A program made the position numbers and the translations under genes. This document shows, piece by piece, positions 13,263 to 61,672 of a stretch of DNA of 64,000 bases; within the stretch, counting starts at the first letter, position 1; each line of letters begins with the position of its first letter. Source of the stretch: Archangiaceae bacterium (GTDB lineage Bacteria; Myxococcota; Myxococcia; Myxococcales; Myxococcaceae); assembly GCA_016879935.1 (NCBI GenBank), contig JAACJQ010000221.1, forward strand, positions 1 through 64,000, written 5' to 3'. The notes beneath the pieces were generated by a model. That model saw only the letters and a list, made by a program, of their open reading frames with translations. It was not told the DNA's origin and did not search any database.

Positions 13263-13273
13263 GGTCGAGGTCC

Positions 13274-14629: not shown

Positions 14630-14632
14630 GGG

Positions 14633-16750
14633 TCACCGCACCACGAGAATTCGAACCTGCCGGCCAGGCACGGTGATGGAGCCACCTGCGTTCATCGACT
14701 GCTCGACCAGCTCGTCCATCGCCTGCGCGGGCAGCCCCGTCAGCGTCGCGCTCGCGTCGCCGCGGTTGATGGCCACGTAGACGGTCTCTTCCGTCGAGCG
14801 CATCGAGTACAGCCACGTGTCGTTGCCGACGTTGATGGTGGTGCGCGTGCCGCGACGGAGCGCCGGGTGTGCCTCACGAATCTTCCCGAGCCGCTTGAGC
14901 CGCGTCTGCAGCCACTGCTGGTTCGCGTCGAGGCCCGCCCACTGCATCACGCGGCGGTTGTCGGGGTCTCCGCAGCCGGGCAGGCCGACCTCGTCGCCGT
15001 AGTAGAGCAGCGGCGCCCCACGGCTCGTGTAGAGCACGCCGAACGCGACGGCCACGCGCTCGTACGCGTCGCGGGAGCCCACGGTGGCCGGTCCGCTCCA
15101 CGCGCAGTTGCCGCCATTGTCGTATTCACCCCACCGCGGCGGGCGCTCGGCCTGGTGAATGATTCGCCCGAGGTCGTGGTTCCCAATCCACGTGCTCATG
15201 ATGGCGTCGGCGCCGTAGAACGAATCATTTCCATCCATGAAGCCCTTCAAATTCGACATGGGCTCGGCGCCGCGCACGGTCGCCTGGAGCAGGATGCGCC
15301 GCAGCGGGAAGTCGAACTGCCCGTCGAGCTTCGTGCCCGGGTCGATGAACGAGCGCAGGTAGCCCTGGTTGCCGAAGTCGTAGGTCTCTCCGACCATGTA
15401 GAAGCGCTGCCGCGGTGACTGCGTCGCGTGCACCTCGGAGTCGAGGCGGGTGCGCAGCTCGGTCAGCCACGAGCCGTCGACGTGTTTGATGGCGTCGGCG
15501 CGAATGCCGTCGAAGCCCACGCGCTTGACCCAGTCGATGACGTTGCCCACCGAGTACGCGCGCGCGGCCGGCACCGTGTAGTTCCAGTGCGGCAGGTAGT
15601 TGGTGAACCAGCAGCGGTGGCCCTGCGTGTTCCAGGGACAGACGCCGGAGTCGTCGCAGATGCAGTTGCCACCGTTGAACTGCAGCGGCCAGAACCAGCC
15701 CGGGTTCTGCTGGAAGACGGTGGCCGTGTTGTGCACGTGCACCATCGCGTAATCGAGGAGCACCTTGATGTTCTGCGAGTGCGCCTCGGTGACGAGGTCC
15801 TTCAGGTCTTGCTCGGTGCCGAAGCAGCGCTCGGCGCGCGTGACGTCAGAGGGCCAGTAGCCGTGGTACGCGCTGTAGTTTCGGCCGTCGGAGCCCGCGC
15901 CCACGCCATCGAAGTTCTCCACCACGTCGGTGAGCAACAGCGTGTTGACGCCGAGGTCGCGGAAGTAGCCGGCGCGCAGCTTCTGGGTGACGCCCTTCCA
16001 GTCGCCGCCCGAGTAGTTCGCGAGCGTCGGCACACCCGCCACGTTGCAGTTGTTGGAGGCGTCGCCGTCGAAGAAGCGGTCGACGAACACGGAGTAGATG
16101 ACCGAGTCACGCCAGTCGAACACACCCGTCGGCAGCGTCGTGGTCGCGCAGGTGTAGGTCGTCGGGCAGGTCGTCGCCGCGCGCAGGCTGTTGGTGGTGC
16201 CGTTCGTCTGCCCGGTGGAAGGATTGGCCGGGTCGAGCAGCCAGGCTCCGTCAGCGAGGAACTTGTATTGAATTGGCTGGCCCCACGGCGCCTGCACGGT
16301 GCCGCGCCACTGATTGCCCGACTTCGTGAGCGCGACGCCGCGTGACCAGCCGTCGTCGGCGAAGTCTCCACGCACCTCGACGCTGGCCTCGTTGCCGGCC
16401 GCGAAGGTGAACTCGACGGCGCAGCGCTTCAGCGCGTCGGCGCAGACGGGCAGCGCCGTGCCTCCAGCGCTCGAGGTTCCGCCCCCAGTCGTGACAGCGC
16501 CGCCTCCCGTCGACGACGAGCCACCGCCGAAGACCGTGCCAGCACCGGTGCCTGCTCCAGTTCCCGCTCCTGTTCCTGCGCCAGTGCCTGCGCCCGTTCC
16601 AGCTCCAGCGCCCGTGCCCGTTCCGCCCCCCGCGCCGTCGTGCGCGCAGTCAGGGGTGAAGGTGCGAGGCGAGGTGAGTGACGGACGAGTCGTGGTGTCT
16701 CCGCAAGCGAAGACGAGGGCGACAAGGGCGAGCGGCAAACGACGGGACAT
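14633..16750 (-). CDS. GH13 alpha-amylase-family lipoprotein with N-terminal glycogen-binding-like domain
   Basis: 705 residues. Lipoprotein signal ending VFAC (Cys-16), a Gly/Thr/Ala repeat linker (43-72), a second Gly/Ser/Thr linker, then an E-set/CBM48-like domain (~105-195: VEVRGDFADDGWSRG, APWGQPIQYKFLADGAW, LDPAN). The GH13 barrel starts at ~212 (WRDSVIYSVFVDRFFDGD). Region I reads DYAMVH, with Val-337 where Asn is usual; region II is GIRADAIKH (nucleophile Asp-419); region III is VGETYD (acid/base Glu-455); region IV is IGNHD (Asp-526). Many Cys in the barrel suggest disulphides. First gene of the operon; GGAGG sits upstream of ATG 16750. The exact product specificity is unclear. Confidence 0.92.
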   Translation of the reverse strand: MSRRLPLALVALVFACGDTTTRPSLTSPRTFTPDCAHDGAGGGTGTGAGAGTGAGTGAGTGAGTGAGTGAGTVFGGGSSSTGGGAVTTGGGTSSAGGTALPVCADALKRCAVEFTFAAGNEASVEVRGDFADDGWSRGVALTKSGNQWRGTVQAPWGQPIQYKFLADGAWLLDPANPSTGQTNGTTNSLRAATTCPTTYTCATTTLPTGVFDWRDSVIYSVFVDRFFDGDASNNCNVAGVPTLANYSGGDWKGVTQKLRAGYFRDLGVNTLLLTDVVENFDGVGAGSDGRNYSAYHGYWPSDVTRAERCFGTEQDLKDLVTEAHSQNIKVLLDYAMVHVHNTATVFQQNPGWFWPLQFNGGNCICDDSGVCPWNTQGHRCWFTNYLPHWNYTVPAARAYSVGNVIDWVKRVGFDGIRADAIKHVDGSWLTELRTRLDSEVHATQSPRQRFYMVGETYDFGNQGYLRSFIDPGTKLDGQFDFPLRRILLQATVRGAEPMSNLKGFMDGNDSFYGADAIMSTWIGNHDLGRIIHQAERPPRWGEYDNGGNCAWSGPATVGSRDAYERVAVAFGVLYTSRGAPLLYYGDEVGLPGCGDPDNRRVMQWAGLDANQQWLQTRLKRLGKIREAHPALRRGTRTTINVGNDTWLYSMRSTEETVYVAINRGDASATLTGLPAQAMDELVEQSMNAGGSITVPGRQVRILVVR
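16535..16624 (-). repeat. Gly-Thr-Gly-Ala repeat tract within the second amylase
   Basis: About 90 bp encode a run of GTGA/GAGT units (residues 43-72) directly after the lipoprotein Cys region. The DNA is a near-periodic 12-bp pattern with synonymous variation, so it may change length by slippage. It probably serves as a flexible tether. Confidence 0.8.
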
Positions 16751-16770
16751 GAGACCTCCGCCCCGCCGCA

Positions 16771-16798
16771 TGGCACTCGTTGTGCCAGCTGATCAGCT
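16771..16798. promoter_or_regulatory. candidate operator: adjacent inverted repeat and palindrome upstream of the glycan operon
   Basis: TGGCAC-5 nt-GTGCCA (16771-16787) is a perfect 6-bp inverted repeat. It is followed at once by the perfect 12-bp palindrome AGCTGATCAGCT (16787-16798). Both lie 21-48 bp upstream of the second amylase start, where a repressor or activator site would be expected. The function is inferred from position and symmetry only. Confidence 0.35.
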
Positions 16799-16872
16799 CG
16801 CCAACCCCTCGATTTCGATGGCGCGAGGCCGGGGCGAACAGGCCACGAGGACGCTTGTCCTCCCGACGTGGC

Positions 16873-20212: not shown

Positions 20213-20317
20213 GAGTGGCCTCGCAGGCGTGGAGCGACGTCGAGACAGACGCCGGGAGGCGCGACGTTGTTCCGACGAGTGGGCAGGAGCAAGGCATCTG
20301 CAGCGTCGCGTGCCGCC

Positions 20318-21022
20318 TCAGCGCTCGAAGAAGCGACGGAGCGAGCTGTCGAGACGCAGGCCGAGCGCGTTCATGAAGGTGTCGAACTCGACGGGCGACA
20401 GGTCGAGGTCGCTGGACATGACTCGACGGAGGTTGGTCGCCAACTGCTGCCGCGCCGCTGCCACCCAGCGCGCAGCCGAGTCTCTGTGAGTGCCGTACAC
20501 GACGGCGATTCGGTGCATCGAGAGCCCGTCGTCGAAGGCGAGTTTGAGCAGGCTCTGGTCGCGTGCGCTCAAGGTGGACAACGCGCGAACGAGCGCGCGG
20601 TTCATGGCAGGTCTGTGGCGTTCCTGCAGGTAAAGCAGCGCGAGAGTCGACGAGGAGAGCCTGGCGTCGGTCAGCCCAGCGCTCGGACGCGCGAGGTCGA
20701 CCATCAACCGTGTCGCGATGCTCTTCACCCACAGCCAGAGCGGCGTGTCACCGCGGTACTCGCTCAGGCGTGCGGGCCGGGCGCCAGTCGCAAGCAGGAG
20801 GCTGGCGCGAAGCTGTCGGCACACCTCGTCGACGGCCTCGGGTCTTTGGTCGATGCGTCTGAGGGCGGGCAGCACGCGCGCGACGACCACCCGCTCGAAG
20901 GTCTCGAGCGCGAGTCGCTCTCCTCGAACACAGGCGCACGCGAGCAAGAGGTCGGCTGCGCGCGTCGGGTCTGGCCGCCGCACCCTGAACTCGCGGAGCG
21001 GGGTCGTCAGGTCAGGAGTCAC
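20318..21022 (-). CDS. sigma-70-like factor, Sig-70_gmx1 type, short N-terminus
   Basis: 234 residues from the GTG at 21022. It is a clear paralogue of the protein at 29590-30441, sharing AADLLLACAC, LSEYRGD-PLWLWVKS, LMVDLAR, L-LAF-DGLS--RI--VYGT and AARWVAAAR. The last of these is the helix-turn-helix of sigma region 4. Such factors belong to a myxobacterial family (TIGR03001, recalled from knowledge). Compared with the paralogue it lacks about 45 N-terminal residues; an in-frame TTG at 21043 adds 7. It may direct RNA polymerase to the downstream VIT/vWA operon, 105 bp away on the same strand (inference). Confidence 0.8.
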   Translation of the reverse strand: MTPDLTTPLREFRVRRPDPTRAADLLLACACVRGERLALETFERVVVARVLPALRRIDQRPEAVDEVCRQLRASLLLATGARPARLSEYRGDTPLWLWVKSIATRLMVDLARPSAGLTDARLSSSTLALLYLQERHRPAMNRALVRALSTLSARDQSLLKLAFDDGLSMHRIAVVYGTHRDSAARWVAAARQQLATNLRRVMSSDLDLSPVEFDTFMNALGLRLDSSLRRFFER

Positions 21023-21092
21023 GTGACGATGCAGGCCGTGCAAGAAGAGAAGAGACTCACATTCGCCCGAGACATCGCCTCCACGGAGAGGG

Positions 21093-21476
21093 TCAAGGGA
21101 GGGGCTCCTTCGTCCACTCAGAGGCCACCTGACTCGCCTGGAGCGAACTCACCGCGTAGCCGAGCGACAGCAGCACGTCGAAGATCGCATTCGACATGAG
21201 CACGACGGGGAGAACACCGAACTGGTTGGTGCGGTTGACCTCGAGTGCCGCCGCCGTTGCGAACGCGACTGCCGAGCCCGCGAGCGCGATGGACAAGGTG
21301 CTCGCGACACTGCCGGCGCTTCGGGCCTGCCATTCGAAGTTCCGCGCCTGGAGACGCGAGACGGTCTCGCCTTGTGGGCGCTCCGATGCCCGAAAGAACG
21401 TCACGCACCCCGACATGAGCGCCAAAGACAGTACAAGGATGGCGCCGATGGGCTGTCGAGTGGAAATGCGGTTCAT
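21093..21476 (-). CDS. small lipoprotein with two hydrophobic stretches
   Basis: 127 residues from the ATG at 21476. The signal ends LALMSGC, a canonical lipobox. Two further hydrophobic segments (~60-83 and ~88-113) follow a polar region, so the protein may be a lipid-anchored membrane protein. No family recognised. It lies just upstream of the sigma factor gene on the same strand (70 bp) and diverges from the lipoprotein gene at 21567 (90 bp). Confidence 0.6.
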   Translation of the reverse strand: MNRISTRQPIGAILVLSLALMSGCVTFFRASERPQGETVSRLQARNFEWQARSAGSVASTLSIALAGSAVAFATAAALEVNRTNQFGVLPVVLMSNAIFDVLLSLGYAVSSLQASQVASEWTKEPLP

Positions 21477-21566
21477 CGCATGGAGGACGTGACGAGTCTG
21501 GTTTGGTCTCAAGACGAGTCGGCGCGATGCGTGAGACGGTTCGCGGCACGCTGCGTCTTCTGGGAA

Positions 21567-21908
21567 ATGTCTCTTCTTTTCCGCTCTCTGGTGTCTCTGC
21601 TGCTCCTCTCGTTGGCTGGTTGCGGAGGAGGTGCCGACTGCACCGGCCCGCAGTTCACCGACGCTCAGTTGTGCTCGCTCAAGTGTGGTGAGTCGACGTA
21701 CGACCAGGCCAAAGCGCTGCTCGGCGCGCCGTCGGCTTCAGGGTCGCAGTTCCTCGACTACCGGGCGACCTGCGCCGGCGGAAGCGAGCTGCTCGCCATC
21801 ACCCTGACCTTCGACTCCGCCAATCGGCTCTCGAAGGTCGGCCGGCTCGCCGTCGGAGCGCGGTTCTCGGGCGGGTCGCTGCCGTCGTGTCTCGCCGCGT
21901 GCCAGTGA
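21567..21908 (+). CDS. small lipoprotein with BamE/SmpA-like pattern
   Basis: 113 residues. Lipoprotein signal LLLLSLAGC, then CTGPQFTDAQLCSLKCGESTYDQAKALLGAPS, which resembles the G-x-S/T-x-x-x-x-x-x-LLG-x-P element of BamE/SmpA-fold lipoproteins, followed by strands (LLAITLTFDSANRLSKVGRL). Four Cys after the lipidated one could pair. BamE proteins sit in the outer-membrane assembly complex, but this fold is reused widely, so the role here is uncertain. Start at ATG 21567; the next gene begins 19 bp downstream. Confidence 0.6.
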   Translation: MSLLFRSLVSLLLLSLAGCGGGADCTGPQFTDAQLCSLKCGESTYDQAKALLGAPSASGSQFLDYRATCAGGSELLAITLTFDSANRLSKVGRLAVGARFSGGSLPSCLAACQ

Positions 21909-21927
21909 GTTCAGCCAGGCAACCCTC

Positions 21928-22509
21928 ATGAGTTGGCACTTTCACTACCGGATCAAGCTCGAGCGGGAGTTGCTCGCCGCCGAGCATGCCGCGCTCGAGG
22001 CCGTCTGCCAGCGTCATGGCCTCTTCCTGAAGAAGGTCGTGCGCGGCGTCGACTGGCTCGACCAGTGGAAGGGTCTGGTCGAAGAACAAGAACTCGCGCG
22101 AACGAGGCGGCTCTATGTCAACAGACCTGCCTCAGCCTCAGACTGGTACGACTACGCAGACCACCTTCCGGTTCGGAGCGTCAAACAACTCATTCGGCTG
22201 GTGCGCTGGCTGGGTGACGTCGAGGCACTCTTGCCGTTCGACGCGTTCGAGGTCGGCGACGACTATTACATCCATCGACTCAGGCCTTCGCAGGTCGACC
22301 TGCCCCTGCTCGAGCGTGAGGCGAAGGACGAGCCTCGCAAGAAGAGCGCAACACCAACCCGACAGCAGAAGGCGATGATGAAGTGGGCGCGCGAAGTGGT
22401 CGAGTCGATCGAAGGCGAGGTCGAAGCCGAACTCGAACCGCTGGAGCGCGACCTCGAAGAAGCCCGGCGCCAGTTCTCGCGGTGGAAGGCAAGAAGCCAG
22501 GCGAGCTGA
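21928..22509 (+). CDS. cytoplasmic protein of unknown function with C-terminal coiled coil
   Basis: 193 residues without signal or membrane segments; family not recognised. The N-terminal ~120 residues are rich in Trp, Tyr and His (MSWHFHYRIK, SASDWYDYADHLP). The C-terminus (~145-190) is a strongly charged helix (VESIEGEVEAELEPLERDLEEAR) likely to form a coiled coil. It follows the small lipoprotein by 19 bp. It converges with the 358-residue gene at 22512, the two stops being separated by 2 bp (TGACGTCA). Confidence 0.6.
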   Translation: MSWHFHYRIKLERELLAAEHAALEAVCQRHGLFLKKVVRGVDWLDQWKGLVEEQELARTRRLYVNRPASASDWYDYADHLPVRSVKQLIRLVRWLGDVEALLPFDAFEVGDDYYIHRLRPSQVDLPLLEREAKDEPRKKSATPTRQQKAMMKWAREVVESIEGEVEAELEPLERDLEEARRQFSRWKARSQAS

Positions 22510-22511
22510 CG

Positions 22512-23588
22512 TCAGCGTTTGATGAAGTCCGAGAAGCTGCCTCTGAAACCCGTCGACTTCGCGTCGAGGTAATCGACGAACGATGGGTGCGAGACCATCT
22601 CGAGCGGTGTCATGGAATTGGGCTTGCTGCCGCCTCTTCCGAGCTGCGGGCGAGGTCTCACCGTCTCGGTCGAGAACCACTCGGCGCCACGCCCGCCGAC
22701 GCCGCCTGGGCCTGCGAGCTCTGCCAGATCAGCGCGGTCGAGCATGTCCTGCATCGCGCTCCAGAAGGCGTGGTCGATGTGCCGCTCGTTGTCGGCCTGC
22801 TCCCTCGAGTAGTCGGCCAGCGTGCCGCGCGGGTTCTTCTCGAACCAGCTCGTCATCGTCGCGACCTCACGTTCGAGCTCGGCACGGCGCTGCGCACCGT
22901 CGCGGGTCAACTTCGGGAGGAGCGGCGCAACCGTGTTCAGCTTGTCTGGCTCAGGCATCGACTCCCATGCGGCGAGCGACATTCGCTTCTGCTCCTTCGA
23001 CTTCAGGGACTCGGGCAGGTGTCGACCGCTCTGCGGAAGAACGCGCACCCGCGAGAGCGGAACGCCCGCCGCGAGGGCGAGCCGTTTGACCACCGCGAGC
23101 GCCACCGGCCTGGGCACGTAGTTGAGCTCGACCTCGTCGAGACCCGACGACAGTCGCGCTTTCACCTGGACGAGCATCTCGCCCCGGAGCTTCTGGAGGG
23201 CGCCGTTCTTCGTACCCTTCGACAGCTCGAGGAAGCGCGCTTGAGCGCGGAGCAGCTGCGGGTCGCTCCGATTGTTCCAGCTGTCCCAGAGCGGGTTCGA
23301 CGCCCCGTCGAAGAGGCGCCACGAAACCTCGCTTCCCGGCCGGCCCTTCGAGACGAGCTCGGCATCGGTGAAGAGGTATCGCGTGTTCAGCACGTGGCGC
23401 GTCTCGCCGTGCCACTCGAACGGCGTCAACTCAGCGGTCACTGGGCCAGGTCGTTCTGGAGCAACGCCTCGGGGCGTCTCGGCGGCGGGTGCGTGACGGC
23501 TGACTCGACTCGGCGGGCGAACGGGCATGCCGAAGAGACGGTCTCGCCACCGCTTCGTCTCACCGCGCGAGGCCCTGAGACGAATCAT
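22512..23588 (-). CDS. protein of unknown function, possible secreted effector-like
   Basis: 358 residues (or 338 from an ATG at 23528). The first ~55 residues are Arg/Pro/Ala-rich and disordered-looking (PPSRVSRHAPAAETPRGV). The rest is a mixed alpha/beta globular region with many charged helices (RAQARFLELSKGTKNGALQKLRGEML, AQRRAELEREVATMTSWF) and a Gly-rich loop (AGPGGVGGRG). No signal peptide, membrane helix or catalytic motif recognised. The disordered head followed by a large domain resembles some secreted effectors, but this is only an impression. It diverges from the 117-residue gene at 23627. Confidence 0.6.
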   Translation of the reverse strand: MIRLRASRGETKRWRDRLFGMPVRPPSRVSRHAPAAETPRGVAPERPGPVTAELTPFEWHGETRHVLNTRYLFTDAELVSKGRPGSEVSWRLFDGASNPLWDSWNNRSDPQLLRAQARFLELSKGTKNGALQKLRGEMLVQVKARLSSGLDEVELNYVPRPVALAVVKRLALAAGVPLSRVRVLPQSGRHLPESLKSKEQKRMSLAAWESMPEPDKLNTVAPLLPKLTRDGAQRRAELEREVATMTSWFEKNPRGTLADYSREQADNERHIDHAFWSAMQDMLDRADLAELAGPGGVGGRGAEWFSTETVRPRPQLGRGGSKPNSMTPLEMVSHPSFVDYLDAKSTGFRGSFSDFIKR

Positions 23589-23626
23589 GGGTGGAGACGT
23601 CTCTGAGAAACCCCTCAGGAGGCCTC

Positions 23627-23980
23627 ATGGTCGTCTCGCTCACGCGCGCTCGCACCACCACCCACCGGCCGGCGACACCGGCGCGCACGTTCGCCGTTTC
23701 GTCGACCGACCCGGGTCTGCAGGTCAAGCAAGACGGCCCCATGTCGTTCACCGTTCGCGGCGTCGCGCGCAGCGCCTCCTCGGTCGTGGTCGTGAACGTT
23801 GGCGCTCGAACGATTCGCGTGCCCCTTCGAAGCGGCATGGCGCCAGAAGAGCTCGCTGCCTCGCTTCGACGGTCGCTTCATCGAACGTACGAGGTGAAGG
23901 TCGAGGGCCTCGCCTATCGTCCCGGGCCGGGACAACGAATGCCGTTTCGAGTGAGCCTCTCTCCACGCGAACCCCGATGA
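23627..23980 (+). CDS. 117-residue protein of unknown function
   Basis: The ATG at 23627 has a strong ribosome site (AGGAGG, 4 bases upstream), which fixes the start over an earlier ATG at 23591. The first 40 residues are Thr/Arg/Pro-rich. The rest looks like a small alternating beta domain (FTVRGVARSASSVVVVNVGARTIRVPL) with one helix (PEELAASLRRSLHR). No signal peptide seen. The stop overlaps the start of the next gene (ATGA at 23977), so the two are translationally coupled. Confidence 0.65.
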   Translation: MVVSLTRARTTTHRPATPARTFAVSSTDPGLQVKQDGPMSFTVRGVARSASSVVVVNVGARTIRVPLRSGMAPEELAASLRRSLHRTYEVKVEGLAYRPGPGQRMPFRVSLSPREPR

Positions 23981-24810
23981 ACCAAGACATGGCTGCAGTT
24001 CCGCTTCGAATGGCCCTCGTTCTGCTCACGGGGTGCACACACGTCGCGACCGCGTCTTCGGCGGCCGCGTTCAAGACCGTGAACGTTCCAGTGATGAACG
24101 ACGGCGTTCCGGGCGAATCGCGATTGACGTCGGCTGAACGGGCACGGTGGTGCCAACGGCTCACCGACGAGGCGCTCACGCGCATTCCACTGGCGGGTGA
24201 CGAGGCGCGACGTATCGACGACTGCGCTGTTCAGCTTCAGCCAGCTCCGGGCCGGCAGCTCGTGCCGGGCGTGCGAGTGGTGTTCAGCGTCGACGCTTTC
24301 GCGCGAAGACCGTTCGCAGCGGCGTCGTACGACGAGGCCACCCGCACCCTCTACCTGCCGCTCGGAGCGCTCGACGCACCGTGGAGCGACGTTCAAGCCA
24401 CCCGTCACGAATGGCGTCACGCCAGAATCGACGCGTCGGCCGACGATGCGGCGCTGCGGTCTCGAGCGGTCGGGCCGCGGTTCAAACCAGACAGCTTCGT
24501 GTTCGACGAGCTGCTGGTGAACACGTGCGACCTGGTCGACGCCGAAGCGGCTGGCGTGGCCCCACCGCCCTGGCAGCGCCCGATGGTCGAGTCGATGCTC
24601 GCCCAGGCAGTGGAAATTCTGGGCGAAGCGAGACGAGCGCCAATCGCAGCGCACCTGTCACTTGGAGGTGGCACGACCCTCGAGCTGCGTGGAGCTCCCG
24701 CAGACAGCCTCGCTCGGCTGACGCAACTCGAGCATGAGGTGCGTGAGGGGTTGGCGCACCTTCAGTCGCTTCGGCCTCGATGTGAGGCGCTCCTCGGCGC
24801 GCGTCCCTGA
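23977..24810 (+). CDS. putative HExxH metalloprotease lipoprotein
   Basis: 277 residues. The N-terminus ends VLLTGC, a lipobox (Cys-20). Around residue 141, ATRHEWRHARID contains HEWRH (144-148), the zinc-binding HExxH pattern, and FDELL with Glu-178 could supply the third ligand, as in gluzincins. The protein is therefore a candidate zinc peptidase tethered on the periplasmic side. Family not named; the motif could also be coincidental. Translation is coupled to the upstream 117-residue gene through an ATGA overlap. The RDD-domain gene starts 10 bp downstream. Confidence 0.65.
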   Translation: MNQDMAAVPLRMALVLLTGCTHVATASSAAAFKTVNVPVMNDGVPGESRLTSAERARWCQRLTDEALTRIPLAGDEARRIDDCAVQLQPAPGRQLVPGVRVVFSVDAFARRPFAAASYDEATRTLYLPLGALDAPWSDVQATRHEWRHARIDASADDAALRSRAVGPRFKPDSFVFDELLVNTCDLVDAEAAGVAPPPWQRPMVESMLAQAVEILGEARRAPIAAHLSLGGGTTLELRGAPADSLARLTQLEHEVREGLAHLQSLRPRCEALLGARP

Positions 24811-24820
24811 GCCGCTACAC

Positions 24821-25366
24821 ATGAATTGCTCCTTTCATCCGACGCGGCCCTCGACCACCCAGTGCCCGCGATGTCGAACTCCGCTGTGCGGCCCGTGTGG
24901 CGACGTCGTGCTCTCGAGGGGCGCCACTTGTCCGAGGTGTCCCCATCATGAACGGCCGCCAGCGGCGCTGTCGCGACGACTGCTCGCGCATCTGGTCGAC
25001 AGCGCGCTGCTGGCAGTTGGCGTGATGTCGCTGCCGCTCCTGGTGCGATTCGCAGTGCCGTGGGCCGGCGTCATCAGCTTGATGCTGGTCTGCGCCGCGC
25101 TCGCTGTGGAGTTCGGCTGGCAGCTTGGCCACGGCCGCTCCGTGGGGAAGTGGCTCATCGGGCTTCGAGTCGTCATGGACTCGGGCGAGCCTGCCGACCT
25201 GCTTCGCGTCATCGTCTTGAGAAACGTGCTCCCGCTCGTGCTCTCTGCCGTCTGTGGAGTTCGGTTCTTCGTCGACCTCTACTACCTGGTGACGCCGCCA
25301 CATCGTCGGCTTGGTGACCGCCTGGCTGCCACGAGAGTGGTCGAAGACCCACGCCTCGAGCGGTAG
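24821..25366 (+). CDS. RDD-family membrane protein with N-terminal zinc-binding (B-box-like) head
   Basis: 181 residues. The first 40 residues carry ordered Cys/His (C3, H6, C15, C18, C23, C26, C37, C40) as in a B-box-type zinc finger. Next comes an RDD membrane domain beginning SRRLLAHLVDSALLAVG, with helices at ~58-75, ~80-100 and ~130-150, and the RDD-like GRSVGKWLIGLRVV and PPHRRLGDRLAATRVV segments. RDD proteins are small inner-membrane proteins, some linked to ion transport (family knowledge). It sits 10 bp after the metalloprotease-like gene, so it is likely co-transcribed. Confidence 0.85.
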   Translation: MNCSFHPTRPSTTQCPRCRTPLCGPCGDVVLSRGATCPRCPHHERPPAALSRRLLAHLVDSALLAVGVMSLPLLVRFAVPWAGVISLMLVCAALAVEFGWQLGHGRSVGKWLIGLRVVMDSGEPADLLRVIVLRNVLPLVLSAVCGVRFFVDLYYLVTPPHRRLGDRLAATRVVEDPRLER

Positions 25367-27110: not shown

Positions 27111-29582
27111 CTACGGGGCGCGCTCCACCGCTCGAAGCAGGTCCTCCGTGGCCGCGATTCGAAACGCGCTGTCGGCGTTGCTGCGGCGAAGGCCGAGCGC
27201 GCGGGTGAGCATCGCCCGCGCTTCGTCTTTCGACCCCCGAGCTGCTCGAACGAGGGCGAGCTCTTCGAGTGGTTCGACGAGATCGAAGTGGTCGGCGCCC
27301 CGCTCGCGCTGAACCGACTCGAGTACCTCGGTCAGGAGCGTCTCGGCGAGGTCGAGCCGGCCGAGCTGCCGCTCTGCTGCGCCGAGGTTCAGCTGGACTG
27401 CCATCGTGCCGTAGTTCTTCGGGCCGAGGGTGCGCGACCGAACGCGGAGAACGGCCTCGGCCAGTGCCCGCGCCTCTTCGAGTTTGCCGACCTTTCGCGC
27501 CAGCAGTGATTGGTTGTTTCGCACCACGAGCGTCGCCGGGTGCTCGTCACCCATCGTTCGCGTCATCACCTCGAGCAACGCGGCGTTCTCGGCGTAGGCC
27601 TCGGCGAAGTGGCCCAGCAGCGCGTGCTTCATGGCGACGTAGCTGCGAATCGTGAGCACGTGATGGTGCTCGCTGCCGGCGGTCTTCGTGAGCCGCGCGA
27701 CCGCGTCGCTCGCAATCTGCAACGAGCGTTCGTGATTGCCCTCGACGCGCGCGACATGAATCGAGGCAATCGTCAGGTTCACGTCGGCCCGGAGCGATGG
27801 CGGCTCGCGTACCGACAATGCCTGCGCGAGGTCCAACGCTGCGCGCGCCGCGAGTGGTTGGCGCTCTCGCAACGACATGGTGATGGCGACGGCGCTGAGA
27901 CACTCCGCAGCGATGCCGTCTTCACGAACCTCGAGCGCACGGCGAGCACAGTCTCTCGCCCGGGCCGTGGCGTTCGACTCGTAGTGGCGAATCGCGGCTT
28001 GTGCGTCGAGCCAACCGAGCTCGGCCTGGGCGACGCCCGCATCGAGCGACTGCACCTGAGACCGGAGCCGTTCGATGCCTGCCCGCACCTCGGCCGGCCG
28101 GCCAATCGCCACCAGGTGCCTCAGCGAGGCGATCTCGAGACGCACCGCTCGCTCCGCCGAGTTGGCCTCGGTGAGGTCGACGCGCTGGCACGACTCCAGG
28201 TCACGAAGCCCAAGCACGGCCGCGGGCGCTTCGACGACCATCTCGGGCGTGGGTGCCGACAGGCTCGTGACGAGCGACTCCACCTCGCGTCGACGCAGGT
28301 CGAGGCACTCGCGAATGGAGGCTCCGCGCGCCGCCGAAATGCTGCGCTCGCGCTTCTCGGCATGACACGTCTCCAGAGAGAGTCGCTTCCAATGCCCGAC
28401 GTACTCGGCGAGCAGACGGTTCGTCTCGGCCGCGGCGAGCGTGGCGAACGAGGTGCGCGTCGTGTCGAAGGCCGCCTCTCGCGCGGCGCGGCGCTCCGAG
28501 GTGACCTGACTGTCGAGGTCGACTCCAACGTCGCGACACGGGTCTTGCGTCAGCCCGACGTAGCCGAGCGGCGTCAGCGTCAACGCGACGGTGCAGGCGG
28601 CGAGCACCCAGGGCCAGCGCGGAGGCCCGGCCGCGAGCGCCTTCGCAAAGGCAGCCATCGTCGGAAAGCGCGCCGAGGGCTCTGGCGAGAGGCCACGACG
28701 AACGACGCGCTCGAGCCAGCGTGGAAACGGGCGACCTGCAGGCTTCGTCGGCTCCTGCTGTTGGGCGGCGCGCAGCTGGGCGAGCGTCGAAGCGCGAAAG
28801 GGCCGCTCTCCTGCGATGGCCTCCCAGAGCGAGACACTCAGCGCGAACTGGTCTGCGCTCGCGTCACCGGGGCGCCCGTCGAGCTGTGCGGGCGCGAGGT
28901 ACGCCGGCGTTCCCACCAGCTGCGGCGCCGCTGCATTGGCCGTCGCGAGCGTGCCGAGCCCGAAGTCGCTCAGGCGTGCCCGCCCATTCACGTCGATGAG
29001 CACGTTGTCTGGTTTGAAGTCGCGGTGCACGACGCCGGCGTCATGAGCCGCCGCGAGCGCCTCGGCGAGCTGGGTGAAGACCTCGACGATGGCGGGGAGC
29101 GCGGGGCGAGTCGCCAGCCACTCCCGAAGCGTGCCCCCGTTCACCAGCTCCATCACCAACACCAGCCGGCCCTGCCACTCGGCGACCTCGTGCACCGTCA
29201 CGATGTTCGGGTGCGTGAGCTTGGCCATCAGCCTCGCCTCTTCGCGCAGCGAGGCCGAGTCGGAGTGCAGCACCTTCAACGCGACTTGCCGCTCGAGGCG
29301 AGGGTCCCACGCTGCGAACACCGTGCCCATGGAGCCCGCGCCGAGCAGCTTCACGAGGTGGTACGGCCCGAGAATGACGCCGGGCTCGAGCGAGCGCGGG
29401 AGCTGCGAGGGCGCCGTGTCACCGAGGCTGGTGGTGCTCACCGACGCGACCATCGAGGCGGCCGTTCGCCGGCATCGCTCGCACTCCTCGATGTGCGCCA
29501 GCAGCTCGGCCCGCTCGGTGTTCGAGAGGTCGTTGGTCGCCAGTCGCGCGAAGAGCGCCTCGTCGGGGCAGTACCCGGTCAC
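27111..29582 (-). CDS. zinc-finger / Ser-Thr kinase / TPR receptor
   Basis: 823 residues. The N-terminus has an anti-sigma-like zinc finger (HIEECERC, ~30). The kinase domain (~67-320) shows GAGSMGTV, VALKVL (ATP Lys), HRDFKPDN and SDFGLG, so it is catalytically intact. One membrane helix follows (WPWVLAACTVALTLTPLGYVGL, ~335-357), then ~460 residues of helical repeats with TPR-like spacing. The kinase is cytoplasmic and the TPR part exported or periplasmic. The GTG at 29582 is 7 bp after the sigma-factor stop. A zf-HC2-like head directly behind a sigma factor suggests the kinase controls that factor by binding or phosphorylation (inference; such pairs are common in myxobacteria). Confidence 0.92.
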   Translation of the reverse strand: MTGYCPDEALFARLATNDLSNTERAELLAHIEECERCRRTAASMVASVSTTSLGDTAPSQLPRSLEPGVILGPYHLVKLLGAGSMGTVFAAWDPRLERQVALKVLHSDSASLREEARLMAKLTHPNIVTVHEVAEWQGRLVLVMELVNGGTLREWLATRPALPAIVEVFTQLAEALAAAHDAGVVHRDFKPDNVLIDVNGRARLSDFGLGTLATANAAAPQLVGTPAYLAPAQLDGRPGDASADQFALSVSLWEAIAGERPFRASTLAQLRAAQQQEPTKPAGRPFPRWLERVVRRGLSPEPSARFPTMAAFAKALAAGPPRWPWVLAACTVALTLTPLGYVGLTQDPCRDVGVDLDSQVTSERRAAREAAFDTTRTSFATLAAAETNRLLAEYVGHWKRLSLETCHAEKRERSISAARGASIRECLDLRRREVESLVTSLSAPTPEMVVEAPAAVLGLRDLESCQRVDLTEANSAERAVRLEIASLRHLVAIGRPAEVRAGIERLRSQVQSLDAGVAQAELGWLDAQAAIRHYESNATARARDCARRALEVREDGIAAECLSAVAITMSLRERQPLAARAALDLAQALSVREPPSLRADVNLTIASIHVARVEGNHERSLQIASDAVARLTKTAGSEHHHVLTIRSYVAMKHALLGHFAEAYAENAALLEVMTRTMGDEHPATLVVRNNQSLLARKVGKLEEARALAEAVLRVRSRTLGPKNYGTMAVQLNLGAAERQLGRLDLAETLLTEVLESVQRERGADHFDLVEPLEELALVRAARGSKDEARAMLTRALGLRRSNADSAFRIAATEDLLRAVERAP

Positions 29583-48326: not shown

Positions 48327-49802
48327 GTGGACGGACAGCTTCAGCCAGGTGTGCAGTTGCTCGGGAAGCTCCGCGTCGTGCGGCTGCTCGGCGCCGGTGG
48401 CCTGGGCGCGGTCTACGAGGTCGAGCACGAGCTGACGAAGCACCGGCGCGCGCTCAAGCTGCTGCACCCGCGGCATCGCGAGAACACCGAGGTCGTGCAG
48501 CGCTTTCTGCGTGAGGCGTCGGCTGCCGGCCACATCGGTGACCCGCACATCGTCGAGACCTTCGACGCGGGCGAACTGCCCAGCGGAGAGCCGTTCCTCC
48601 TCATGGAGATGCTCGAGGGTCAGCCGCTCGCGAACCTGTTTCGCGACACGGGCCGGTTGCCCATCGCGCTCGCGTGCGACCTCGTCAGTCAGGCCGCCGA
48701 GGCCGTCGACGCCGCCCACCGCGCGGGCATCGTTCACCGCGACCTCAAGCCCGACAACCTCTTCGTCACCCAGCGCGCGGGCAAGCCCTTCATCAAGGTG
48801 CTCGACTTCGGCATCTCGAAGTTCGACTCGCAGCAGACCGGCGCGCTGACGGTGACGTCGGCCGGCGCGGCCATGGGCACACCGCTGTACATGGCGCCGG
48901 AGCAGATGCGGGGCGCACACGACGTCGACGCCCGCGCCGATGTCTATGCATTGGGTGTGGTGCTCTACGAGGCGCTCACCGGTGGCGTGCCGTTCTACGC
49001 CGAGAACTTCGCCGAGCTCGCCGCGCTCGTGCTCGGTGGCAACGCGCCATCGCTGCGTGAGCGCCGCGCCGGAGTGCCGGTCGAGCTCGCCGAGGTGGTG
49101 CACCAGGCCCTGCGAGTCTCGCCGGCCGCGCGCCCTGCCACCGCGTCGGCGTTCGCGCTGCAGCTGCGCCCATTCTGTGACTTCGTCGAGGTCGAGTCGG
49201 CGAATGCGAAGCCCTCGGCCGAGCCCATCATTCGGGAGCGCGCGACGCCTGGCCTCGCCCAGCAGTCAGTCGCCGCGTCAGACCCCGCGCTCGACTCGAC
49301 GATTCCGCGAGCGCCCGAGGCGCCGAAGCCCGACGCGCAGCCCACGCCCATCGTGCTGCAGAAGGCGCCGCCCGAGGCGCAGCCGACGCCCATCATCGAG
49401 CGCGCGCAGCCACCGCCCGCCGTCCCCGCTCCTGCGCCGCAGCGCTCGTCGTCGACCGTCGTGACGGCCGTCGTCGTCACCGCCGCCGTCATCGTGGGCG
49501 GGCTCGTCGTGCGCTCCATGGGCCCCTCGCGCTCGGGGCCAGACGCCGTCGTCGATGCTGGCCGTGCTCCCCTCGACACGGTCGTCGTTCCGGTGCGCCT
49601 GCCCCCGCTCGTCGAAGACGCAGGTGTGGTCGACGCTGGAGTGCTGGGTGACACGGGGAGCGTCGATGCAGGCGCGCCAGTGCCCGCAATGGTCGACGCG
49701 GGCGCCGTCGATGCCGGCACGAAACCGAAGCCGAAGCCTGCGAAGAAGAAAGACGCTGGTGGCGCGAGCGGGCTCAGCCACGACTTCGACGAGGGCACCT
49801 GA
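48327..49802 (+). CDS. Ser/Thr kinase with VDAG-rich exported tail
   Basis: 491 residues from a GTG at 48327. The kinase domain (~16-275) is intact: GAGGLGAV, RALKLL, HRDLKPDN, LDFGIS and APEQMR. Then a Pro/Ala/Gln-rich segment (~295-370), one membrane helix (VVTAVVVTAAVIVGGLVV, ~378-395) and a periplasmic tail of about 95 residues dominated by DAG/VDAG units (residues ~405-470) and a Lys/Pro run (KPKPKPAKKK). The kinase is cytoplasmic. The tail probably contacts envelope material. The stop overlaps the next gene (TGATG at 49800-49804), coupling it to a PEGA protein. Confidence 0.93.
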   Translation: MDGQLQPGVQLLGKLRVVRLLGAGGLGAVYEVEHELTKHRRALKLLHPRHRENTEVVQRFLREASAAGHIGDPHIVETFDAGELPSGEPFLLMEMLEGQPLANLFRDTGRLPIALACDLVSQAAEAVDAAHRAGIVHRDLKPDNLFVTQRAGKPFIKVLDFGISKFDSQQTGALTVTSAGAAMGTPLYMAPEQMRGAHDVDARADVYALGVVLYEALTGGVPFYAENFAELAALVLGGNAPSLRERRAGVPVELAEVVHQALRVSPAARPATASAFALQLRPFCDFVEVESANAKPSAEPIIRERATPGLAQQSVAASDPALDSTIPRAPEAPKPDAQPTPIVLQKAPPEAQPTPIIERAQPPPAVPAPAPQRSSSTVVTAVVVTAAVIVGGLVVRSMGPSRSGPDAVVDAGRAPLDTVVVPVRLPPLVEDAGVVDAGVLGDTGSVDAGAPVPAMVDAGAVDAGTKPKPKPAKKKDAGGASGLSHDFDEGT

Positions 49803-51286: not shown

Positions 51287-54200
51287 TCAGGGTGAACACT
51301 CGAAGATGGTCTTGCGCAGGTCGCCGTCCGTCCACACCACGCCGACGCTCGACGAACTCAGCGGCGTCACCGCGAAGTCCGTGCGCTGGTTGGTGGCCTG
51401 GCCGAGGTTGACGTCGGTGTTCTGCATGGGCCCGGCGTCGGGCGACAGCAGGCCGTACTTCACGCGCACGTAGGTGTCCTTGTTGAACACGCCGATGAGG
51501 CCCGCTCCGGGGAAGGCGACGCCCGTGCCGCCTGGCGCCGAGTAGCCGTCGTTGGTGCCGCTGATGGGGTTGTTCACGTCTTCGAGCGAGCGCGTGCTCT
51601 GCAGCACCCCGTCTTCGTCGATGAAGAGCACCTTGGTGTCGTCGGTGCCGAGCGTGGTGGTGGCCGAGGTGACGACGACGCGGAAGACCTGCCCGTCGAA
51701 CGTCGCGGCGTCGAGGCGCGGGCGGCGGCCATTGGCAGGCGTCGTCTGGCTGTTGAAGCCCCACATGGCGGGCATGGGCAGCGACGGCGCGGTGAGGGCG
51801 GTGTCGTACGTCATCCACCGGATGTGGGTGGTGTTGTTGAGCGGCGCCATCAAGTCATTCACCCAGACGAAGAGCACGCTGCGGCTGCCGACGGCCACGT
51901 GCGAGGGCGCGTTGTTGTTCGGGTCCGAGAGGTTGAAGCTGGCGCGCGCCTCGTTGGGCGTGATGTTGAAGACGGGCCGCGCGCCGTTGATGCCACCGTC
52001 GGGGTTCACGGTGGAGAACTTCAACGTCCACGGCGGGGTGCCGACGCCGACGTTGTCCCACCACGTCGCAATCCACGTCGAGGTGGTGGGGTTCCACGCC
52101 ATCGCGGGGCGAATGGTGCGGTTGCCGGTGGTGCCGCCGGCGGAGTTCGTCAGGTCGGTGCAGCCGGAGATGGTCGACGACGCCAGCGTGCCCGTGGTGA
52201 CGGGCCCGAACGAGGTGCTGATGAGGCCGAAGGCCGAGCGCAGCGTGTGGGTGTCGGAGCTGCAGCACGTGGCCTGCGGGTTCTGCTGCGAGCCGGTGAT
52301 GGCGCTCACCGCGAGCGTGGTGCCGTTCGACGCCAGCATCGGGCGGGCGACCTGCTTGCCGTAGATGACTTGCGGCGAGTTGCAGACGCTCCACGACGTC
52401 GTCGACGACACCACGGGCACCGGGCCCGAGACGAGGCTGAAGTCGGAGCCGTTCAGCTTGAAGAGGTCGACGGTGCCGTTCACCGCGTGGCTGGCGGCGG
52501 CGACGAAGATGTCGGTGCCTACCCGCAGCATGGCGGGCGCTCCGGCGCGCGGGGAGTACTGGTTGCCAGTGCTGAGCACGCCGCGCGCGCCCGGCTTCTC
52601 GCGCCACAGGCCCTCGTCCACGACGCCGTTGCAATTATTGTCCTTCCAATCACACAACTCGGGCGCGGCCGGGAAGATGGTGTTGTCATTGTCGTCGCAG
52701 TCGTCGGCCGTGCCGCCACAGGCACGTGGGTAGCGGCCGTCTCCGTCGAAGTCGACCGCGATGGTCTGGTAGCTGCATTGACGCGACGCCGCGCTGCAGG
52801 TGTCGCGGGTACAGGGGTTGTTGTCTTCACAGGGGTTGATGCCTGCGATGCAGCGACCGGCACGGCAGGCCTCGGTGCCGTTGCAGAAGTCGTTGTCGAT
52901 GCAGTCGATGTCGGCGCGGCAACCGCCGTCGAGGGGAGACGTGCCGGCATCGCGCACACCCGCGTCGTTGCCACCCGTGCACAGGCTCGCTCCGCGGCAG
53001 TGGCTCTGCTGGCAGCACTGGCCCTGCGAGGTGAGGCAGTCGACGTCGCCGAAACACTCGACGACGCACACGCCCGAAGCGCCACAGACGAGGTTGTACG
53101 GAGCGCACGCCGACTGCACCGTGCACGGCGCGCCGTAGCCCGTGGGCAGCCCCGCGTCGGCTGGCAGCCCCTGCGGAATGCACAGGTTCTGTCGGCAGGT
53201 GTAGCTGATGGGGCAGTCGCGGTCGTTGAGGCACTCGGGAATGCAGACGCCCTGGTTCGAGCAGCGCTCGCCGAAGGGGCACTGGCTGTTGAAGACGCAA
53301 CGTGCGCCGCCATCGCTGATGGAGCCGCCGTCGAAGGGCGGGAACACGCAGGCGCCGTTGACGTCACAGACGTAGCTGGCCGGGCAGTCGCGCGTCGCGG
53401 TGCATTCGGGAATGCAGAGGCCCTGCGGGCCGCACTTCTCTCCGAGGCGGCACTGGCTGTTGTACACGCAGCGGGTGCCGGTGCCGGCGTCGAGGCCCGC
53501 GCCACCGTCGGCCGTGGGGAGCACACATTCTCCTCGCGAATTGCAGACAAAGCCGAAGGCACAGTCACGGCTCTGGGCACACTCGGCGATGCACAGCGAT
53601 TGAGTACATTTCTGACCGACGGCGCACTGACTGGTGAAGGTGCACGCCGAGCTTCCGCCGTCGACCGCGCCGGGAACGCAGGCGCCCGCGTCGGAGCAGG
53701 CGAACCCCGCGGCACAGTCTCGCGCGCCCAGACACTCGGGAGCGCAGCGGCCATTGGTGCAGCGCTCGTTCAGCAGGCACTCGCTGTTGAGGCGGCAGGT
53801 GCCTCCGATGGTGGGCCGGCGGCATTCCCCCTGTTCGCAGACCGTGTCGGCGCCGAAGCTGGCGCAGTCGCGCGTCTCACGGCACTGCTCGACGCAGGTT
53901 CCGAGCGAGGAGCACGTCAGCGGCGTGGGGCACTCCGAGGTGTAGCGGCACTCGCGGCCGAGGCCACCGTCGCTCGCACGAGGAGCGCAGACGCCGCGGT
54001 CGCATACCTGGCTCGAGGCACAGTCTCTGCCCGAGATGCACTGCGGCCCACACAGCCCGCCGATGCAGTAGGCGCCTGCGCCCGCGTCGGCGCACTGGGA
54101 GTTGTAGTCGCAGCGCGTGCCCGTTGGAGGCGTGACGCCGTTGGTGAGGCAGCGACCGAAGGAGCACGTCGCGTTCGAAGGGCAGTCGACCTGCGCGAAG

Positions 54201-54685
54201 CACTCGGGCGCGCAGGAGCCGGCGCGGCAGGCGAGGAAGAGGCCTCCGTCGACCTGCGGGCACTCGCTGTTGCGCTGGCACGTTTGACGCGCGGGAGGAA
54301 AGCCACCATCGACGGTGACGTTCTCGGGCCACACGCACTGGTTCGAGACGCAGCGCTGGCCTTCCGCGCAGTCGGACACACCGAGGCAGCCACGGCGGCA
54401 GGTGAAGTCGTCTCCGCAGAGCATGCCGGCCGGGCAGGGCAGGTCGCGACACGACGTCTGCGTGCACACGAGGTTCGGTGGGTCGCCCTGGGCCTGACAG
54501 TCACTCCCCATGGGGCAGTCGCGGGCGGTGGTGCATGGCTGGTGACAGCGACGGAACACGCAGACGAGCGGCGCCTCGCAGTCGGAGTTCAGCAGACAGC
54601 CTTCGGCCAGCTTCGACGGCGCGCGCTCGTCACGAGTCACACAGCCAGCGAACGCGAGAAGGAACAGGACGAGCAGTGAACGCAC
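51287..54685 (-). CDS. large Cys-rich lipoprotein with MopE-type motif and C-terminal propeller-like region
   Basis: 1132 residues. Lipobox LLAFAGC (Cys-15). Residues ~28-640 hold roughly twenty Cys modules (C-x4/5-S-x-C pairs, e.g. CEAPLVCVFRRC, CPMGSDCQAQ), each of about 25-35 residues, separated by DGG/DAG-rich spacers. Residues 645-693 contain the MopE-type Ca/metal motif (DFDGDGRYPRACGGTADDCDDNDNTIFPAAPELC, then NNCNGVVDEGL). The last ~440 residues are beta-strand-rich, like a propeller, with few Cys. Probably an outer-surface metal-binding or adhesion lipoprotein. Convergent with the PEGA gene (21 bp between stops). Confidence 0.88.
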   Translation of the reverse strand: MRSLLVLFLLAFAGCVTRDERAPSKLAEGCLLNSDCEAPLVCVFRRCHQPCTTARDCPMGSDCQAQGDPPNLVCTQTSCRDLPCPAGMLCGDDFTCRRGCLGVSDCAEGQRCVSNQCVWPENVTVDGGFPPARQTCQRNSECPQVDGGLFLACRAGSCAPECFAQVDCPSNATCSFGRCLTNGVTPPTGTRCDYNSQCADAGAGAYCIGGLCGPQCISGRDCASSQVCDRGVCAPRASDGGLGRECRYTSECPTPLTCSSLGTCVEQCRETRDCASFGADTVCEQGECRRPTIGGTCRLNSECLLNERCTNGRCAPECLGARDCAAGFACSDAGACVPGAVDGGSSACTFTSQCAVGQKCTQSLCIAECAQSRDCAFGFVCNSRGECVLPTADGGAGLDAGTGTRCVYNSQCRLGEKCGPQGLCIPECTATRDCPASYVCDVNGACVFPPFDGGSISDGGARCVFNSQCPFGERCSNQGVCIPECLNDRDCPISYTCRQNLCIPQGLPADAGLPTGYGAPCTVQSACAPYNLVCGASGVCVVECFGDVDCLTSQGQCCQQSHCRGASLCTGGNDAGVRDAGTSPLDGGCRADIDCIDNDFCNGTEACRAGRCIAGINPCEDNNPCTRDTCSAASRQCSYQTIAVDFDGDGRYPRACGGTADDCDDNDNTIFPAAPELCDWKDNNCNGVVDEGLWREKPGARGVLSTGNQYSPRAGAPAMLRVGTDIFVAAASHAVNGTVDLFKLNGSDFSLVSGPVPVVSSTTSWSVCNSPQVIYGKQVARPMLASNGTTLAVSAITGSQQNPQATCCSSDTHTLRSAFGLISTSFGPVTTGTLASSTISGCTDLTNSAGGTTGNRTIRPAMAWNPTTSTWIATWWDNVGVGTPPWTLKFSTVNPDGGINGARPVFNITPNEARASFNLSDPNNNAPSHVAVGSRSVLFVWVNDLMAPLNNTTHIRWMTYDTALTAPSLPMPAMWGFNSQTTPANGRRPRLDAATFDGQVFRVVVTSATTTLGTDDTKVLFIDEDGVLQSTRSLEDVNNPISGTNDGYSAPGGTGVAFPGAGLIGVFNKDTYVRVKYGLLSPDAGPMQNTDVNLGQATNQRTDFAVTPLSSSSVGVVWTDGDLRKTIFECSP

Positions 54686-59668: not shown

Positions 59669-60706
59669 TCACGGTTTTCCGCGCGACGACTCTGCGTCTT
59701 CGAGCGCGATGACTTCCCGCAGCGCGGCGTAGTCGCGAGGGCTCGGCTCGATGAAGGTCGTCGCCCGCTCGATGGAGCCGCTCTCGTCGGCCGCCGGCTT
59801 GAACGCGAACAGCGCGGCCTTCAGCGCGTCGACCTCCTTCGCAGGCGCGCCCGGCCCGGCGACGATGGTGTCTTGCGGTGAACGCCCCGTGATGGCGATT
59901 TGCCGAAGCTGCGACACGTCGATGCCCTGGGTGACGGCGTTGACGAAGGCTCCAGAGTACGTGCCTCCGGCCTGACAGCGTTTGCTGGCGAGGTCTCGCA
60001 GCACCTGCAGGTGGTTGCCGCTCTTCACCACGGTGACGTCCTTCTCCCAGTCGAGCCCGGCCTTGCGCGCCGCCATGCGGGGAAAGAGGAGGCCCGTCGT
60101 CGAGTCGTCGTCGGGCACGCACACCGTCTTGCCCTTGAGGTCGGCGATGGTGACGATGTCGGTGCCCTCGGCTGCGAGCAGCACGCCGTCGATGCCCGAG
60201 GCGCCACCAATCAACTTCAGCGCCACCGGCTTCACCCGCGGGTCTTGCCGCTCGGTGCGCACGAAGAGGGTCGGAGGCAGCGACGCGTACTGCACGCCGC
60301 CGTCGAGCAGCAGCGTCGACAGCTCGTGGTAGCTCGACGTGTACAGGAATTGAACTGGCCGCCCCGTGCGCCTCTCGAGGTGACGGCGCAGCGGCTCGAG
60401 GTCGGCGGCCAGCACCACCGCGTCGACCGTCGGTGGCCAACCCACCAGCAGCGGCGGCCCACTCGGTGGCGGGCGCAGCACGCGAAACGCCAGCGCGCCT
60501 CCGAGCACCGTCGCCACCAGCGCGAGGCCGACCGCGAGCGCGAGCTCCTTCACCGAGAGCCCCGTGCGCTTCGATGCTCGCACGCTCAACGAGGCCCGCG
60601 GCAACGTCTCGCCGGTGTTCGGCGCTCGTCCGCCCGGCTCGTCCCACGCCGTCTTGTCGTCGTCTTTGAAGCCTTCGACCTTCGCGCGCGCGACCGCGGC
60701 CTTCAC
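59669..60706 (-). CDS. PhnD/SsuA-like substrate-binding domain, membrane anchored, probable C-terminal half of a split kinase receptor
   Basis: 345 residues from a GTG at 60706. About 48 cytosolic-looking residues, one membrane helix (~50-77: LALAVGLALVATVLGGALAF), then a PhnD-like periplasmic binding domain: EPLRRHLERRTGRPVQFLYTSSYHELSTLLLDGGVQYASLPP, LKGKTVCVPDDDSTTGLLFPRMAAR, KSGNHLQVLRDLASKRCQAGGTYSGAF. Substrates of this family are phosphonates, phosphite or related anions (family knowledge). The gene is in the same frame as the kinase upstream, separated from its last codon only by TAG (60707-60709). I therefore suspect that it is the sensor half of one receptor rather than a free transporter component. 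Confidence 0.8.
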   Translation of the reverse strand: MKAAVARAKVEGFKDDDKTAWDEPGGRAPNTGETLPRASLSVRASKRTGLSVKELALAVGLALVATVLGGALAFRVLRPPPSGPPLLVGWPPTVDAVVLAADLEPLRRHLERRTGRPVQFLYTSSYHELSTLLLDGGVQYASLPPTLFVRTERQDPRVKPVALKLIGGASGIDGVLLAAEGTDIVTIADLKGKTVCVPDDDSTTGLLFPRMAARKAGLDWEKDVTVVKSGNHLQVLRDLASKRCQAGGTYSGAFVNAVTQGIDVSQLRQIAITGRSPQDTIVAGPGAPAKEVDALKAALFAFKPAADESGSIERATTFIEPSPRDYAALREVIALEDAESSRGKP

Positions 60707-61672
60707 CTAGTTCTCGTTCGCGCGCAGCACGTCGCCGTGCACCACTTCGACGAAGGCGGCGAGCTGGTCGGGCTGGTGCTTGAGGCCCAGCGCGTCGGCG
60801 GCGGCCTCGAGCTCGCGGCGAAACTCGTCGGCCGTGGCCCAGCGCTGCGCCTTGTCGAGCGAGAGCGCGCGCATCACCACCTGCGAGAGCGGCTCGGGCA
60901 GGTCGGCGCGGAACTCGGTCGGGCGCCACGTGTCGGCGGTGATGATGGCCTGCATCGTCTCGAGGTCGGTGTCGCGCTTGAAGAGGCGGCGTGAGGTGAA
61001 GAGCTCCCAGGCGACGATGCCGAGCGCGAAGACGTCGCTGCGCCGGTCGAGCTTCTGCTGCTGCACCTGCTCCGGCGACATGTAGTGCAGCTTGCCCTTG
61101 AGGCTGCCTTCGCGCGTGGTGTCGACGCCGAGCTGCGTGGCCTTGGCGATGCCGAAGTCGAGCAGCTTCACGTGCCCGCCCGCCGAGACCATGACGTTGT
61201 GCGGAGAGATGTCGCGGTGCACGAGGCCGAGCGGCGCGCCCGAGGGGTCGTTCAGCTCGTGGGCCGCGTGCGCTCCGGCACACGCCTGCGCCACCAGCCC
61301 GACGACGACCCCGAGCGGAAATGGACGGCCCTGCGAAATCGCCGCGCGCAGGAGGTCGCGCAGGCTGACGCCCAGCACGTGCTCCATCGCGATGAAGGGG
61401 CTGCCGTCGGCGTCACCCAACTCGTGAATCTGCACGATGTTCGGGTGCGTGAGCCGCGCCACCCAGCGGGCCTCCTGCAGGAACATCTCGCGGAAGGCGG
61501 GCTGCGAGGCGAGGTGCGGCAGCGCGCGCTTGATGACGACGAGGCGCTCGAAGCCATGCGGGCCGTGCTCGAGGGCGAGGAAGATTTCGGCCATGCCTCC
61601 GATGTCGAGCCGGTGCACGAGCTCGTAGCGGCCCAGGTGTCGGCGCTGAAAGTCGGGGGCGGCCTCGGCCAT
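60707..61672 (-). CDS. Ser/Thr kinase, ends at an in-frame amber codon before a PhnD-like domain
   Basis: 321 residues. Intact kinase (~15-285): the Gly-rich loop is degenerate (DIGGMAEI), but the VAIK-like VIKRAL, HRDISPHN, LDFGIAK and SPEQVQ motifs are present. HRDISPHN is a normal variant. There is no membrane helix before its end (...VVHGDVLRANEN, then TAG). The next codon (60706) is the GTG of the PhnD-like gene in the same frame, and removing the TAG gives one ~667-residue protein with the usual kinase / membrane helix / sensor order. Divergent from the GNAT gene at 61742 by 69 bp. Confidence 0.9.
   Translation of the reverse strand: MAEAAPDFQRRHLGRYELVHRLDIGGMAEIFLALEHGPHGFERLVVIKRALPHLASQPAFREMFLQEARWVARLTHPNIVQIHELGDADGSPFIAMEHVLGVSLRDLLRAAISQGRPFPLGVVVGLVAQACAGAHAAHELNDPSGAPLGLVHRDISPHNVMVSAGGHVKLLDFGIAKATQLGVDTTREGSLKGKLHYMSPEQVQQQKLDRRSDVFALGIVAWELFTSRRLFKRDTDLETMQAIITADTWRPTEFRADLPEPLSQVVMRALSLDKAQRWATADEFRRELEAAADALGLKHQPDQLAAFVEVVHGDVLRANEN

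Follow-up and report, generated by a model that had tools for sequence, protein, structure and literature searches.

PhnD-like sensor domains have been counted in 838 sensor kinases in UniProtKB (PMC5408782). In TtrS and ThsS (tetrathionate, thiosulfate), a PhnD-like periplasmic sensor is carried by a membrane sensor kinase, as in the receptor family analyzed here. The GlnH-GlnX-PknG system of mycobacteria likewise has a periplasmic binding protein that controls a Ser/Thr kinase (PMC6069109). The stimuli of bacterial Ser/Thr kinases have been described as an outstanding question (PMC6069109), and an open-access literature search yielded no description of Ser/Thr kinases with a PhnD domain, which is a weak sign of novelty.

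We analyzed a stretch of 64,000 nt from an Archangiaceae bacterium, in the following called the window. It belongs to a metagenome-type assembly of 9.53 Mb in 445 contigs, and its kin are Myxococcota, mostly Myxococcaceae and Archangium metagenome assemblies. On its minus strand, an earlier note had described a kinase ORF and a PhnD-like ORF that are separated by a single in-frame amber codon.

Results

The minus-strand frame at 59669..61672 contains TAG as codon 322 (60707..60709) and continues with GTG as the next codon (codon 323, 60704..60706), the apparent start of a second ORF. The N-terminal ORF of 321 amino acids (60707..61672, minus strand) is predicted to encode a Hanks-type Ser/Thr kinase, based on the Pfam match (PF00069, E 1.3e-31; residues 21-280, 60833..61612) and on the catalytic motifs GGMAE, VIKR, HRDISPHN, DFG, and SPEQ. 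The C-terminal ORF of 345 amino acids (59669..60706, minus strand) is composed of a linker, a membrane helix, and a PhnD-like domain (Phosphonate-bd, PF12974, E 2.8e-42). Coordinates and Pfam matches confirmed the arrangement proposed by the earlier note, i.e. a 321-residue kinase ending in TAG, an in-frame GTG, and a PhnD-like ORF. A stretch ahead of the helix was also found as claimed; its length had been given as about 48 residues, and the distance from stop to helix turned out to be about 53. The single membrane helix (joined residues about 376-398, 60479..60547) reaches a hydropathy of 2.33 over 19 residues and is preceded by Arg and Lys residues. A full-length structure model placed it at residues 374-398; the mean pLDDT of this model was poor (64.9), and it served as a secondary check only. 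The basic residues ahead of the helix suggest, by the positive-inside rule, that the kinase resides inside the cell and the binding domain outside.

When the joined frame served as the query, full-length unbroken proteins were retrieved from three genomes nearby in the phylogeny (84, 75, and 60% identity); a fourth copy is partial, because it is cut by a contig edge, and still spans the junction. Over its whole length, the joined frame could be aligned with single ORFs of relatives, and those at 84%, 75%, 66%, and about 60% identity were continuous across the exact junction. In a second collection of relatives, kinase and PhnD domain were also contained in one ORF in the copies that have both halves on the contig, i.e. 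L102 (84% identical), L103 (about 74-75%), L104, L105, L107, L108, L109, L111, L113, and L114; the two collections overlap, and some copies stem from identical genomes. None of the relatives compared kept two separate genes. The two-ORF arrangement is not a product of chance, because relatives encode both parts in an uninterrupted protein that runs through the very same junction. Judged from these comparisons of sequences, the kinase ORF and the PhnD-like ORF are one gene that has been broken once, not two genes, and the ancestral single gene (59669..61672, minus strand) encoded a receptor Ser/Thr kinase. It had been predicted that removal of the TAG would yield a classic receptor kinase with one membrane span, and a search with the joined protein had been suggested as the check. 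The relatives carry exactly this protein, kinase, helix, and PhnD domain in full length, as a single gene.

The codon alignment revealed GAG at codon 322 in the three nearest relatives (L002, L003, L005), GCA in another genus (L004), and TAG in the window alone. In the phylogenetic tree, the window grouped with L102 (99/99) and then with L103 (100/99), inside the intact copies. Because the window is nested within intact copies, the stop is derived, and GAG in the three nearest relatives indicates that a single G>T substitution on the branch leading to the window gave rise to TAG. The locus thus has the hallmark of a nonsense-mutated gene, an in-frame stop that is derived relative to intact orthologues. 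Close relatives of the sensor domain were found in 11 of 145 genomes of the order. In none of the other ten was a stop detected inside the match, aside from a TGA in one genome (G038) that is located where the match overruns the protein's own end (618-residue ORF) and is not internal. A second copy with an in-frame TAG was present neither among the relatives with a readable junction nor in the order-wide search of the 145 genomes.

The dN/dS values between the window and L102 were 0.16 for the kinase, 0.287 for the linker, and 0.193 for helix plus sensor, similar to those of the intact pair L105-L111 (0.159, 0.308, and 0.199, respectively). Both halves thus appear to be under purifying selection, with no sign of long decay, and because both are still selected, the stop should be recent or an error. 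The window side exhibited somewhat more amino-acid changes than the L102 side (17 vs 11 before the stop, 23 vs 15 after it), its branch was about twice as long (0.13 vs 0.061), and at three columns that are otherwise invariant the window alone carried a change (L160V, E180Q, and G639T), while L102 had none. The extra changes and the longer branch hint at a slight relaxation on the window branch.

The locus is thus very probably one receptor kinase gene with a recent nonsense mutation, an assembly or consensus error, or a strain variant, and not a new translation trick. Within this explanation a real recent nonsense mutation is favoured, and we regard it as probable in its own right. A counterpoint is that a nonsense mutation predicts eventual decay, of which only mild signs have appeared so far. 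More tentatively, and with clearly lower probability, the TAG may be an assembly or consensus error or a minority strain variant, so that the gene of the living organism would be intact. The distribution of the genome over 445 contigs, the metagenome origin of the named kin, and the selection on both halves are in line with this possibility, and many apparent pseudogenes in assemblies are known to be artefacts of errors (PMC11017572). However, an internal stop was found in 0 of the 150 kinase-domain matches listed (about 151 in the genome), so that stops are not a general problem of the assembly, even if one wrong base could have occurred, and the slightly higher number of amino-acid changes in the window lineage than in its sister also speaks against an error. 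Comparison of the window with the contig of the closest relative yielded a good match in only two blocks and hence no estimate of a nonsense rate. Among the four explanations that the earlier note had listed, nonsense mutation and sequencing or assembly error remain as the likely ones, and readthrough and a true split do not.

Low-level readthrough of the TAG, which would yield mostly free kinase and some full-length receptor, is very unlikely. In-frame stops with dN/dS below 1 are reportedly common across prokaryotes, and suppression of such stops may occur (PMC7918605); the low dN/dS values in both halves of the window gene would fit; however, a very recent mutation accounts for these values equally well. 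Amber reassignment or suppression was rejected, because RF1 is encoded in the genome and none of the 55 tRNA genes found in it has the amber-suppressor anticodon CTA, all anticodons being ordinary. Moreover, TAG is a normal gene end in 6 of 52 crudely called ORFs of the window and also terminates the intact L102 copy. The locus also does not qualify as a gene with programmed stop codon readthrough, because the in-frame stop is conserved in no relative. The earlier proposal of real readthrough thus found no positive support.

A true split, in which translation ends at the TAG and starts anew at the adjacent GTG to yield a separate anchored sensor that pairs with the free kinase, is highly improbable. 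The GTG does follow the TAG directly and in frame, the downstream ORF is intact, and its helix could serve as an uncleaved membrane anchor. However, at this position the nearest intact relative has an ordinary codon for Val, and another relative has one for Leu. The ribosome-binding score of the GTG (-3.0, pairing with the 16S tail) ranked 27th of 45 in-frame start-like codons, a value typical of internal codons. A distinctive ribosome-binding site was therefore rejected, and together with the lack of a two-gene version among the relatives this contradicts the split with reinitiation that had been considered before. Some reinitiation at the GTG could nevertheless occur. There is hardly any probability for a maintained switch, in which mostly free, uncoupled kinase is made, with a small amount of sensor coming from leaky readthrough or from reinitiation at the GTG; if true, an oxyanion receptor kinase would have been converted in this strain into a system with two products.

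The sensor domain (59729..60445, minus strand) belongs to the PhnD/PtxB-like family PF12974 by both profile match and fold. Its structure model (pLDDT 91.9) matched PtxB best (5o2j, Z 31.0, rmsd 2.1 over 254 residues), followed by AioX, ArrX, PhnD, and HtxB; the fold match in the model would by itself leave the ligand unfixed. The anion-binding motif S524-T525-T526 (60095..60103) aligns with S130-T131-S132 of PtxB and S127-T128-S129 of E. coli PhnD (PMC5700983), H554 (60011..60013) with H160 and H157, and Y448 (60329..60331) with Y55 and Y47, respectively. H554 and Y448 are invariant in all 12 sequences compared, and the motif is kept as well, save for a Leu in place of T525 in L108. The pocket cap is formed by D601 (59870..59872), kept in 11 of 12 sequences, which corresponds to Tyr208 in PtxB and Asp205 in E. 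coli PhnD, and its partner T415 (60428..60430), which corresponds to Asp22 and Thr14, respectively. Of the three cap residues of E. coli PhnD, a 2-aminoethylphosphonate-type binding protein, Asp205 and Thr14 have their equivalents in the window, and the position of Glu177 is occupied by Ala (A575).

The phosphite specificity of PtxB is given by Y208 and D22 (PMC5700983). Because Asp601 and Thr415 replace this pair, the phosphite-specific PtxB type was rejected. The score for the NCBIfam PhnD equivalog TIGR03431 was 62.1 bits, below the cut-off of 261.1. Phosphite is disfavoured as a ligand, since the predicted cap resembles that of E. coli PhnD and not that of PtxB, and the best inference from the pocket residues is a phosphonate-like or other larger oxyanion. 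The earlier suggestion of a phosphonate or phosphite sensor thus holds with respect to the anion site and fits phosphonate-like compounds better, whereas its phosphite part conflicts with the exchanged cap.

The only two cysteines of the sensor domain, C518 (60119-60121) and C566 (59975-59977), are invariant in 12 of 12 kinase-PhnD sequences and may form a conserved disulfide or have a thiol role. No transporter genes were found beside the receptor gene among the nearby frames tested in relatives; these frames were unrelated and not conserved, and transporter neighbours were thus rejected as a hint to the ligand. In one metagenome-assembled genome (L104, MAG Bin_62_4), a stand-alone PhnD-type binding protein is encoded at 4712-5518 (minus strand), convergent beside the kinase-PhnD gene, and no ABC permease or ATPase gene adjoins it.

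Elsewhere in the window, three more protein-kinase domains are encoded (2648-3385, 28656-29363, and 48375-49151). The protein encoded at 51287-54685 (minus strand) has 1132 residues, with numerous cysteine-rich repeats and a DCDDNDNTIFPAAPELCDWKDNNCNGVVDEG stretch, and its sequence suggests a repeat protein that is located at the surface or binds metal. The region 11515-16821 is 81% identical, in inverted orientation, to 19521-24824 of the contig that bears an intact receptor kinase (G003:C224); most other window DNA is not collinear with that contig.

Discussion

The ancestral protein would have been a single-pass receptor Ser/Thr kinase, with a cytosolic Hanks-type kinase, a signalling linker, one helix, and an external PhnD/PtxB-like clamshell. 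Its residues suggest that the clamshell closes on a small oxyanion, probably a phosphonate-like one. By analogy with TtrS (PMC5408782), AioX/AioS (PMC5908839), and GlnH-PknG (PMC6069109), closure on the ligand may be relayed inward to the kinase via helix and linker. In the window, Glu codon 322 has become TAG by a single G>T substitution. Translation would stop there, and the expected product of the window allele is a soluble kinase, consisting of the kinase domain and about 40 further residues, that is cut off from sensor and membrane anchor. The sensor half would be made little or not at all, and the coupling between ligand and kinase would be lost. How the receptor signals, which class of ligand it binds, and what becomes of the truncated product are all inferred. 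An annotation should merge both ORFs into one interrupted gene for a receptor kinase and should not list a kinase and an independent binding protein. Since the pocket is conserved, the sensor domain of a relative could be used to test the ligand directly.

The sensor has the fold of PtxB, HtxB, and PhnD, the binding proteins of ABC transporters, and the anion ligands Y, STS/STT, and H in common with them; in contrast to these proteins, it is tethered to the membrane and fused to a kinase. Its cap, D601/T415, is that of E. coli PhnD (D205/T14) and differs from that of PtxB (Y208/D22). The same binding-protein fold is used for signalling, not transport, in AioX/AioS and ArrX (Z 29.1 for AioX and 29.0 for ArrX; PMC5908839). 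However, AioX and ArrX are separate periplasmic subunits that act on a histidine kinase, whereas the window family is a fusion to a Ser/Thr kinase. The arsenite ligand Cys106 corresponds to Gly65 of PhnD, and the invariant cysteines of the window sensor lie elsewhere, at 518 and 566. TtrS/ThsS have a histidine kinase and a response regulator as their output, in contrast to the Hanks-type Ser/Thr kinase with a C-terminal sensor of the window family. GlnH-GlnX-PknG consists of three proteins with an amino-acid binding protein, whereas the myxobacterial receptor consists of a single polypeptide. The family of intact receptors is a modest variant of the known PhnD-sensor kinases, set apart by its Ser/Thr kinase output, and it is this tie between a PhnD-type oxyanion sensor and a Ser/Thr kinase that makes the family notable.
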